Below are positions 32,141 through 34,670 of a stretch of 42,267 nt of DNA, piece after piece. The notes beneath the pieces are model-generated. The model did not search any database, was not told where the DNA came from, and worked only from the letters and a program-made list of their open reading frames with translations. Where the stretch lies: contig JAAYCV010000137.1 of the NCBI GenBank assembly GCA_012729605.1, forward strand, positions 1 through 42,267, in the 5' to 3' direction. This DNA is from Ramlibacter sp. Lineage in GTDB: Bacteria; Pseudomonadota; Gammaproteobacteria; Burkholderiales; Burkholderiaceae_C. Each line of letters opens with the position of its first letter. Within the stretch, counting starts at the first letter, position 1. The position numbers and the translations under genes were made by a program.

Positions 32141-32596
32141 ATGCCACCCCAAGTCGAACTCAAGATACTGGACGCCCGCCTGCACCAGCAAATGCCGGCC
32201 TATGCCACACCCGGCAGCGCCGGCCTGGACCTGCGCGCCTGCATCGATGCGCCGCTGGAGCTGGCGCCTAACGCCTGGCAGCTGGTACCCACCGGCATGG
32301 CGATCCACTTGGCCGATCCCGGCTATGCCGCCATGCTGCTGCCGCGTTCCGGCCTGGGGCACAAGCACGGCATCGTGCTCGGCAACCTGGTCGGCCTGAT
32401 CGATAGCGATTACCAGGGCCAGTTGATGGTCAGCCTGTGGAATCGCACCGATACACTGTTCGTGATCGAGCCGATGGAGCGCGTGGCGCAGATGGTGATC
32501 GTGCCGGTGCTGCAGCCGCAATTCACGCTGGTGGAAGAGTTCTCTGGCAGCAGCGCGCGCGGCGAGGGTGGCTACGGCTCGACCGGTCGCCAGTAA
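32141..32596 (+). CDS. dut: dUTP diphosphatase
   Basis: Hydrolyses dUTP to dUMP, keeping uracil out of DNA and supplying thymidylate synthesis. It has 151 residues, the trimeric form. All five motifs are present: [32 protein letters not shown] with the catalytic Asp, RVAQMVI and the C-terminal [15 protein letters not shown]. It follows the hypothetical membrane gene by 19 bases and converges with mnmC, their stops six bases apart. Confidence 0.97.
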
Positions 32597-32602
32597 GCCG
32601 GA

Positions 32603-34384
32603 TCAGCTTGTCTTGTCCAGCCAGCGGCTGGCCGCCAGCAGGCGCGCCAGCCGCTTTTCCAGTGGCCAGGGCTCGTCGTGCAGCTGCGCGGCCAGCAGCT
32701 CGCCCGCCAGCACCGACAAGCTGAGCCCGCGCGCGCCCATGCCGCAACTCAGTTGCAGGCCTTTCAACACTCCCGGCTGAACCGACAGGGCGCCAACGGC
32801 CGGCAGGCGGTCCGGCAGCGTGGCACGCACGCCGGCCCAGCCGTGACCCCGCGCGTGGTCAAAATCGTCGTGCAGGATATCGGCTGCAGCCGGGTGCAAA
32901 AGCTGCAGCTTCTGCCAGATCTCGGGAAATTCCTGTTTGCGCACATCAGGTGAATTATCAGATCGGGTAAAGGTGGATCCGGTAATCCAGATGGATCCGT
33001 TCTGCGCTGATGTCTGCCACGGAATATGGCAGGCCAGACTGCCCTTGCCGTTGACCGGCACGGCGGGCAAGGCGTCATGTGCCTGATCCTGCCAACCCCA
33101 GGCGACCTGGCCGCGCAAGGGGTTCAGCGGCAAGGTTTGCTGCAGCGATTGCAGCAGCTGGCGCGAATCGAATCCGGCTGTCAGCACCAGCAAGTCCGTC
33201 TCGCCGATCAGTGTGCCGGCGGCGTCCAGCAGCTGCCAGGGCGCATCGGCCTGGCTGCGTTGCAGCGCATGCACCGCCGTGTTGCCAATAAAGCGGATAT
33301 TCGGGTGCTCCAGCTGCGCCTGCACCAGCCGCCAGGGCTTGATCCAGGCGGCGCAGTCGTGCCAGACCGCGGTGGCATGGGCGGGCAGGCCGGCGTCCTG
33401 GATTTGCCGGGAGGTTGCGGCGCTGGCCCAGGGGTGGCTTGCGCTGATCCAGTCCGGGGCATCGTCCGCATCGGCTAGCCATTGGCGGGGCAGCTTGCTC
33501 TTGCCATCCACGCAGTGTTCCAGCACACCGGTAGCGGCCCAGTCCTCGCCGGGTTGCAGCAACTTCTGCGCGCGTTGCAGCGTGCTGCGGATGCCGGCAC
33601 GGATCACGCGTGATATCAGGGTGTCATCGGCCGAGCTGTGCGGCACCACCAGGCCAACCGGCAGGCCGGAAGCACCAGCGGCCGGACGCGCAGCCCGATC
33701 CAGTACCGTAACCTGCCAGCCGCGTTCGGCCAGGCTGCGCGCCACGGCACTGCCAGACAGGCCGGCACCGATGACGGTGGCCTGGCGTGGAACCGCAGCC
33801 GGTGCCGACGCCGTACGCCAACGCGGCGCAAAACGCAGGCTGCCGGCAGTCAGCTCGGTGGCCGGTTCCCAGCCGCGCGCGCGCAGCTGCGCCAGCCAGT
33901 CTTCAGGGAGAGGGGTATCGGCGCGATCCAGCTGCAGCAGCGTACCGTGCCGCGCCAGCGCACTCAGGCCGGCGGCCAGGCCTTCACGTTGGGAGCGATC
34001 GGCTTGCTGCAGCAGGTTGGCAGACAGGGTGATATGGGCAAAGTGTCCGCTGGCTTCACGCAGCAGCTGCCAGGGATCGCCAATAGCCAGATGCAGGTCC
34101 AGCCGGCCCGGCAGCAACGGCAGCCGATGCCAGCCCGGCAGCAACGGCAGCCGATGCCAGCCCGGCAGCAGACCCCAGGCCTGTTGCTGGATCGCCTGCT
34201 GCAATGGCACCTGTTCTTCAGGCGTTGCGGCCAGCGGCAGGCAGGCCTGTTGCAGCCACTCTGTGCTGGGGGCCGCAGGGCAGATCCAGACCAGTTGCCG
34301 GCTGCCCGGATGTTCCGTACGGACATGCGCGAGTGGCGGCAGGGCAGTCTGCCCCGGCGCGAAAATCGTCAGCGCATGCGGCAC
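32603..34384 (-). CDS. mnmC: MnmC-like tRNA modification enzyme with degenerate methyltransferase half
   Basis: MnmC finishes the mnm5s2U34 wobble modification: an FAD oxidase half removes the carboxymethyl group and a methyltransferase half methylates the amine. The oxidase half is intact (about residues 205-590; GAGLSGSAVARSLAERGWQVTVLDRAARPAAGASGLPVGLV; CGMGARGLSLSVLAGELLAA). The N-terminal half keeps only patches such as PGWHRLPLL...RLDLHLAIGDPWQLL and has no ETGFGLG SAM loop and no LDGFAP motif. It contains an in-frame 27-bp tandem repeat. The length is about 593 residues. Start uncertain: GTG at 34384, 13 bases after the yggX stop, or ATG at 34447 overlapping yggX. Confidence 0.85.
   Translation of the reverse strand: MPHALTIFAPGQTALPPLAHVRTEHPGSRQLVWICPAAPSTEWLQQACLPLAATPEEQVPLQQAIQQQAWGLLPGWHRLPLLPGWHRLPLLPGRLDLHLAIGDPWQLLREASGHFAHITLSANLLQQADRSQREGLAAGLSALARHGTLLQLDRADTPLPEDWLAQLRARGWEPATELTAGSLRFAPRWRTASAPAAVPRQATVIGAGLSGSAVARSLAERGWQVTVLDRAARPAAGASGLPVGLVVPHSSADDTLISRVIRAGIRSTLQRAQKLLQPGEDWAATGVLEHCVDGKSKLPRQWLADADDAPDWISASHPWASAATSRQIQDAGLPAHATAVWHDCAAWIKPWRLVQAQLEHPNIRFIGNTAVHALQRSQADAPWQLLDAAGTLIGETDLLVLTAGFDSRQLLQSLQQTLPLNPLRGQVAWGWQDQAHDALPAVPVNGKGSLACHIPWQTSAQNGSIWITGSTFTRSDNSPDVRKQEFPEIWQKLQLLHPAAADILHDDFDHARGHGWAGVRATLPDRLPAVGALSVQPGVLKGLQLSCGMGARGLSLSVLAGELLAAQLHDEPWPLEKRLARLLAASRWLDKTS
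34107..34170. repeat. 27-bp tandem repeat inside mnmC
   Basis: Two identical 27-base units (34107-34133 and 34134-34160), with the first 10 bases of a third unit following. In frame, it encodes a repeated PGWHRLPLL on the minus strand. The exact identity suggests a recent duplication or replication slippage. Confidence 0.9.
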
Positions 34385-34397
34385 GAAAGAGAAAGGA

Positions 34398-34670
34398 TCA
34401 GGCCTGCGGCGGCACGTAGCCGGCAGCCTGGTCGGCACCGGCGCCAAAGAAATGGTTTTCCATCTGGCGAGCCAGGTACTGGCGGGCGCGGGCGTCGGCC
34501 AGGTTCAGGCGGTTTTCGTTGACCAGCATGGTCTGGTGGCGCAGCCAGTCCATCCAGGCTTCCTTGCTGACGCTGTCAAAAATGCGCTGGCCCAGTTCAC
34601 CGGGGTAGGGCGCACGTGCCAGACCTTCGGCTTCCTTGCCCAGCTTGATGCATTGAACCATGCGTGTCAT
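34398..34670 (-). CDS. yggX: Oxidative damage protection protein / Fe(II)-trafficking protein
   Basis: Small YggX-family protein that protects iron-sulphur clusters and is thought to handle labile Fe(II). It has 90 residues, the usual length. The conserved Cys7 is in [17 protein letters not shown], then [36 protein letters not shown] and [14 protein letters not shown]. It is upstream of mnmC in the same direction and divergent from acs (281-base gap). Confidence 0.95.

Follow-up and report, generated by a model that had tools for sequence, protein, structure and literature searches.

The window analysed here, a 42,267-nucleotide stretch of Ramlibacter sp. DNA, carries an mnmC-like gene with two very different halves. 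We consider it fairly probable that its product combines a working cmnm5(s2)U34 oxidase with a dead methyltransferase scaffold, that modification in the window species stops at nm5(s2)U34, and that within the genus the methyltransferase was lost first, with a later branch gaining MnmM.

The gene lies on the reverse strand (32603..34384) and encodes 593 aa from a GTG start. A longer open reading frame (34447-32603, reverse strand) encodes 614 aa from a TTG codon, and the original prediction had adopted this whole extent. The frame itself is right, but its 5′ end is not: TTG 34447 falls within yggX, the end of which is at 34398. GTG 34384, on the other hand, is the start position common to the related genomes G002 (VPH), G003 and G005 (both MSH), and the open frame of G002 opens just 4 codons upstream of the GTG equivalent. 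For these reasons, the protein probably begins at GTG 34384. The upstream neighbour, yggX, encodes an Fe(2+)-trafficking protein (34398..34670, reverse strand; PF04362, 141.7 bits), and the convergent neighbour is the dUTPase gene dut (32141..32596, forward strand; PF00692, 120 bits). The window's own genome (G000) is assembled in 295 contigs and is 94.9% complete.

The oxidase half looks intact. Its FAD-dependent MnmC(o) domain spans residues ~204-593 (32603..33775, reverse strand), scores 142.7 bits as DAO in Pfam and passes TIGR03197 (MnmC_Cterm) with 220.7 bits, above the 174.2 required. The counterparts of E. coli Gly518, Arg567 and Gly619 are present in the window protein and in 52/52 homologues, as are glycines 271 and 273 of GxGxxG, which, from their position in the oxidase, we take to be the FAD motif. 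The complete FAD domain that had been predicted is thus borne out by the TIGR03197 score and by the retained FAD-binding residues. In the available excerpt of PMC3648344, Gly518, Arg567 and Gly619 of E. coli MnmC are labelled FAD-binding, and a table labels residues 271 and 273 SAM binding. The window protein has in common with monofunctional MnmC(o)/MnmC1 a predicted cmnm5(s2)U to nm5(s2)U activity, but it adds an N-terminal pseudo-methyltransferase domain of ~200 residues with a predicted fold. Such single-domain orthologues are mentioned in the accessible part of PMC3936742.

The first half appears to have lost its methylating activity and to be catalytically dead. In the Pfam search of the window protein, the PF05430 methyltransferase model did not match this pseudo-methyltransferase domain (residues 1-~203; 33776..34384, reverse strand) at E≤1; the protein also remained below the cut-off of the bifunctional MnmC model NF002480 (268.2 of the required 540 bits). 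Where E. coli has ESGFGTG, the aligned window protein reads TIFAPG, without the GFGxG motif. Glu101, the catalytic Asp178, Gly179 and Pro182 (E. coli numbering) have become C, S, A and Q; Gly66 and Gly68 are likewise substituted, and Phe67 and Gly70 of the SAM loop coincide by letter. Lys236, labelled RNA binding in PMC3648344 as excerpted, has no counterpart. The altered loop, the serine at position 178 and the missing PF05430 match agree with the earlier claim that the SAM loop and catalytic region are absent, and the alignment places PGWHRL and LDLHLAIGD, named in the same prediction as position-matched survivors, in the E. coli register. Like bifunctional MnmC (E. coli, Y. pestis; 3awi, 3ps9, 3pvc, 3sgl), the window protein has the oxidase domain, the domain order, the predicted overall fold and the beta6 interface strand, but the GFGxG loop, Glu101 and Asp178 are gone, as are the first ~58 residues.

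The original prediction described the methyltransferase half as decayed. This stands for the motifs but not for the half as a whole, since a fold is predicted and part of the sequence is constrained. The AlphaFold2 model, made from 53 sequences with intact enzymes included, which may bias it towards the intact fold, reached a pLDDT of 90.2 and a pTM of 0.92. Its best solved matches were four MnmC entries (Z 41.0-42.2). For 3awi, Z was 42.2 over 541 aligned residues at 3.4 Å, with residues 1-593 of the model placed on residues 59-659 of the chain. The model thus predicts that the N half still adopts a methyltransferase-domain fold, aligned in register with its E. coli MnmC counterpart and in the same domain arrangement. 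This structure prediction, suggested as a check when the decay was proposed, therefore speaks against decay throughout.

Between G000 and its sister G002, the N half had a dN/dS of 0.34 (95% 0.22-0.50) and the oxidase one of 0.18 (0.125-0.23), and the N half exceeded the C half in 500/500 bootstraps. Within the N half, residues 1-40 gave 0.74, and residues 81-120, which include beta6, gave 0.11 with 90% identity. Between G003 and G005, the halves are alike (0.20 vs 0.205; the N-half dS is high, 1.7), so relaxation is not evident across the whole genus. The relaxed selection that had been proposed is therefore borne out in only part of the half and finds no support in residues 81-120 or in the G003-G005 pair. 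These values show an N half that is partly relaxed, in its first ~60 residues, and partly constrained, in the beta6 strand.

The retained beta6 hairpin comprises residues 78-101 (the second PGWHRL copy plus GRLDLHLAI; 34082..34153, reverse strand) and corresponds to the E. coli interdomain strand 137-143. In the available text of Kim and Almo, beta6 (137-143, methyltransferase half) and helix alpha10 (319-340, oxidase) form the core of the interdomain interface of E. coli MnmC, Gly137 is conserved in >90%, and the stand-alone A. aeolicus MnmC2 is without beta6 (PMC3648344). The WGLLPGWHRL scrap maps to beta6, and E. coli Gly137 corresponds to Gly84 of the window protein. This position is Gly in 52/52 homologues of the A2 set and in all six genus proteins; Asp178 is found in 31/52 homologues. 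Of the E. coli residues near the interface, Leu95 has been replaced by Arg in the window protein; this position varies across the genus (R/R/H/H/L/L) but is Leu in 51/52 homologues.

Column conservation within the dead half is highest around this strand. With 4 partial rows and E. coli left out, and with rows called intact or decayed by approximate labels from two motif patterns, mean column identity over 37 decayed rows was 0.583 for residues 78-101, 0.356 for residues 1-28 and 0.476 for the oxidase; the averaged parts of the N half other than residues 78-101 gave 0.285-0.356. Out of 167 blocks of 24 residues in the decayed rows, the best six start at positions 64-77, and each overlaps beta6. 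In the 17 intact rows, residues 1-28 (the SAM-loop region) and 78-101 gave 0.758 and 0.724. PG.HR is present in 33/37 decayed and 16/17 intact rows. Outside beta6, Gly147, Gly171, Pro187 and Trp189 are invariant across the 37 decayed rows.

Directly at this strand, the window gene carries a 27-nt in-frame tandem duplication (LLPGWHRLP twice; 34102..34155, reverse strand) that adds nine residues ahead of beta6; pLDDT is 60 in residues 71-80 of the model, where the duplication lies. The repeat had been read as consistent with relaxed selection. We rejected it as a sign of long-term relaxation: the five same-genus relatives have the stretch in single copy, so that of the six genus proteins compared only the window's carries the repeat, and such a private event says little about long-term selection.

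The loss of the methyltransferase motifs is not confined to the window. MnmC of G002, G003, G004, G005 and G007 shows the same loss, and the letters at the lost SAM-site and catalytic positions differ among the six genus members (S/S/G/G/H/H at the Asp178 position). The matches of all six are free of internal stops. PF05430 found no match at E≤0.1 in MnmC of G002, G003, G004 and G005; for G007, it gave E 0.021 over 51 columns. The six decayed proteins form one clade (support 99, starred), in which G000 and G002 (100, starred) are split from the other four (90, not starred). Since five further genomes carry the loss and the six form one clade, it is no sequencing accident. In G001 (62% complete) and G006 (83% complete), no MnmC match was found at E≤1e-10. 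G008, the MnmC of which scores 110.9 bits with PF05430, was considered as a case of an intact methyltransferase within the genus and rejected: its mnmC (L016, G008:C1) is carried by a contig of 3003 bases and joins Giesbergeria-type MnmC in a clade of 6 rows (100, starred). On these grounds the mnmC contig is probably a contaminant, although the mnmM of G008 groups with the genus copies.

Beyond the genus, 147 of 250 family genomes have PF05430 at a best E≤1e-15. Among the other 103, there are 56 with an MnmC oxidase match at E≤1e-55; 35 of these match PF05430 more weakly (E up to 1e-3), through what may be a worn remnant or an unrelated methyltransferase, and 21 do not match it (all counts were read by eye from match tables and then re-added). 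In a tree of 119 oxidase domains, built without L023 and both L024 pieces, the intact and not-intact states of 113 rows require 14 or more changes, the two-state count leaving out 6 "partial" rows; starred branches alone demand no fewer than 7 changes of the "intact" label. As far as profile matches and tree can tell, loss of the methyltransferase is recurrent and common in the family. The named relatives found are mostly Comamonadaceae/Burkholderiaceae. In our search of open-licence PMC literature, no description of an MnmC with a dead methyltransferase half turned up.

In four of the 119 tree rows (L056, L058, L065 and L072), the oxidase follows yggX immediately and lacks the N-terminal domain, so in these the scaffold is dispensable. 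L053 groups with them (support 91, not starred). A frame artefact was considered and rejected for them, as 0 of 12, 10, 12 and 15 translated N-half matches, respectively, cover the PGxHR place and yggX is directly upstream; in L095 and L103, such matches do cover it (48/57 and 47/62). Separately, MnmC is split over two frames in G011 (L024), and the match in G009 (L023) contains one stop; it is possible that the oxidase has also been lost at these two loci.

The original prediction stated that the cell would need a separate methyltransferase or stop at nm5s2U34. Such a need is supported, and neither candidate enzyme was found in the window's genome. Stand-alone MnmD (MnmC(m)) would supply the missing step. 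The genome search for it, likewise suggested at the outset, returned a single PF05430 match of 22.9 bits in another ORF, which we take from its sequence to be spermidine-synthase-like, and this candidate was rejected. In the family genomes G204, G093, G176, G259 and G101, the methyltransferase domain occurs in a separate short ORF (250-282 aa), located 3 Mb from the oxidase match in G204 and on a different contig in G093.

MnmM is the nm5s2U methyltransferase typical of Gram-positive bacteria/Firmicutes. In the window's genome, PF06962 gave no match and the G003 protein as a query gave at best 22.6 bits; G002 (99% complete) has neither MnmD nor MnmM above the cut-offs, and MnmM was also not found in G004 (86% complete). 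MnmM (PF06962) is nevertheless present in 6/9 genus genomes, in which this enzyme, also called YtqB and unrelated to the MnmC gene (4pon, 8h0s; PMC9976899), could perform the missing methylation. The family survey found it in 2/250 genomes, both from the genus (four genus members sampled), and in 0/246 others. The G003 protein passes the NF053511 equivalog (238.1 bits vs a cut-off of 135) and matches solved YtqB proteins. All seven copies from this betaproteobacterial genus (L132-L138) form one clade among 19 MnmM proteins (100, starred); two of the copies come from G006, which has 5% contamination. Our search of open-licence PMC literature found no report of MnmM in this family. These data suggest that the sister species probably restored methylation by an imported MnmM.

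The genomic place of mnmM differs within the genus. It adjoins what we take, by recognition of the sequence, to be radC in G003 and G005, and lies elsewhere, beside a helicase-like gene (presumably a DEAD-box helicase), in G001, G006, G007 and G008. The G000 contig with radC ends right after that gene, and we considered whether mnmM is hidden beyond the end; in G002, a 5S rRNA gene, not mnmM, follows radC. Because of this 5S rRNA gene, a repeated rRNA operon would explain contigs that end after radC.

Cho et al. describe mnmM and mnmC as mutually exclusive in the available excerpt of PMC9976899. In our class survey, MnmM occurs in 30/369 genomes, four of which give an MnmC profile match (E≤1e-15), and 4/4 of these matches cover the oxidase only. 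With all four oxidase-only, the exclusivity seems to concern the methyltransferase half and to fail only in genomes that lack it. Three of the four belong to genus g319 (L176-L178; G637, G432, G542), and the two g319 oxidases that were scored pass TIGR03197 (218.6 and 216.9 bits); the fourth, G367, is weak (59.3 bits). An oxidase-only MnmC together with MnmM apparently arose independently in g319.

In the reading we favour, MnmC(o) would be active and convert cmnm5(s2)U34 to nm5(s2)U34. The dead half would be kept as a scaffold, with beta6, which is under purifying selection, docking onto the oxidase, and would stabilise the oxidase or help to hold the tRNA. In the available part of PMC3936742, E. 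coli MnmC domains set apart have a lower in vivo stability than the full protein, and MnmC(o) on its own folds and is functional. The ancestor of the genus would have lost the methyltransferase before any MnmM arrived. MnmM would then have been gained, and methylation restored, in the branch that unites G003, G004, G005 and G007 (support 90, not starred) but not in G000 and G002. The lack of MnmM in G004 would reflect a loss or genome gaps. A later loss of MnmM in G000 and G002 fits too. Since neither MnmD nor MnmM was found in its genome, the window species probably ends at nm5(s2)U34, although an unrecognised methyltransferase could be doing the step. The wider history, in which the whole genus passed through an nm5(s2)U34 end state, one branch was repaired by horizontal MnmM, the window species stayed unrepaired and g319 acted independently, is one we put forward tentatively, at somewhat below an even chance.

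Several other readings have to be weighed against a retained scaffold. The N half may be a functionless relic in ongoing decay, to be lost as in the clade free of the N domain. The roughly doubled N-half dN/dS between G000 and G002, with 0.74 in residues 1-40, would fit this, as would the private duplication, the unkept interface Leu95 and the four rows already without the domain. We nevertheless regard plain decay as unlikely: the bootstrap upper bound of dN/dS is only 0.50, residues 81-120 stand at 0.11, the six genus matches are free of stops, PG.HR is nearly as frequent in decayed as in intact rows, and the fold is predicted with high confidence. It is quite unlikely that the dead half has taken on a role beyond docking, such as tRNA holding or regulation by another ligand. 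The four invariant residues outside beta6 point that way, but they may serve the fold and the linker, and Lys236, with its RNA-binding label, lacks a counterpart.

Two further readings would leave the last methylation in place. MnmD or MnmM could lie in the unassembled part of the window's genome, the pathway still ending at mnm5(s2)U; an assembly of 295 contigs at 94.9% completeness leaves room for this, and its contig stops after radC, the neighbour of mnmM in G003 and G005. The nearly complete sister G002 has neither enzyme above the cut-offs and 5S rRNA after radC, and the MnmM query covered the whole G000 genome with a best score of 22.6 bits, which makes a hidden gene very unlikely. That the N domain itself still methylates, by way of a reconstructed SAM site or with a partner protein, we consider extremely improbable. 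A Rossmann-like fold is predicted to persist and Phe67 and Gly70 match by letter, but Gly66, Gly68, Glu101, Asp178, Gly179 and Pro182 are replaced by letters that vary across the six members, and the conservation of residues 1-28 is 0.356 in decayed rows against 0.758 in intact ones.

A retained scaffold beside a working oxidase would have consequences beyond this gene. The genus looks like an exception to the exclusivity of MnmC and MnmM, and an explicable one, since its MnmC lacks just the methyltransferase half. It offers a natural series, with an intact half, a dead half without a replacement and a dead half with MnmM, in which the need for the last U34 methyl can be tested. The window protein is a clear candidate for a tRNA methyltransferase retained as a scaffold, and the annotation "bifunctional MnmC" can mislead on the first activity in this family. 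If our reading is true, the genus uses a mixed MnmC(o) and MnmM route in its repaired branch.
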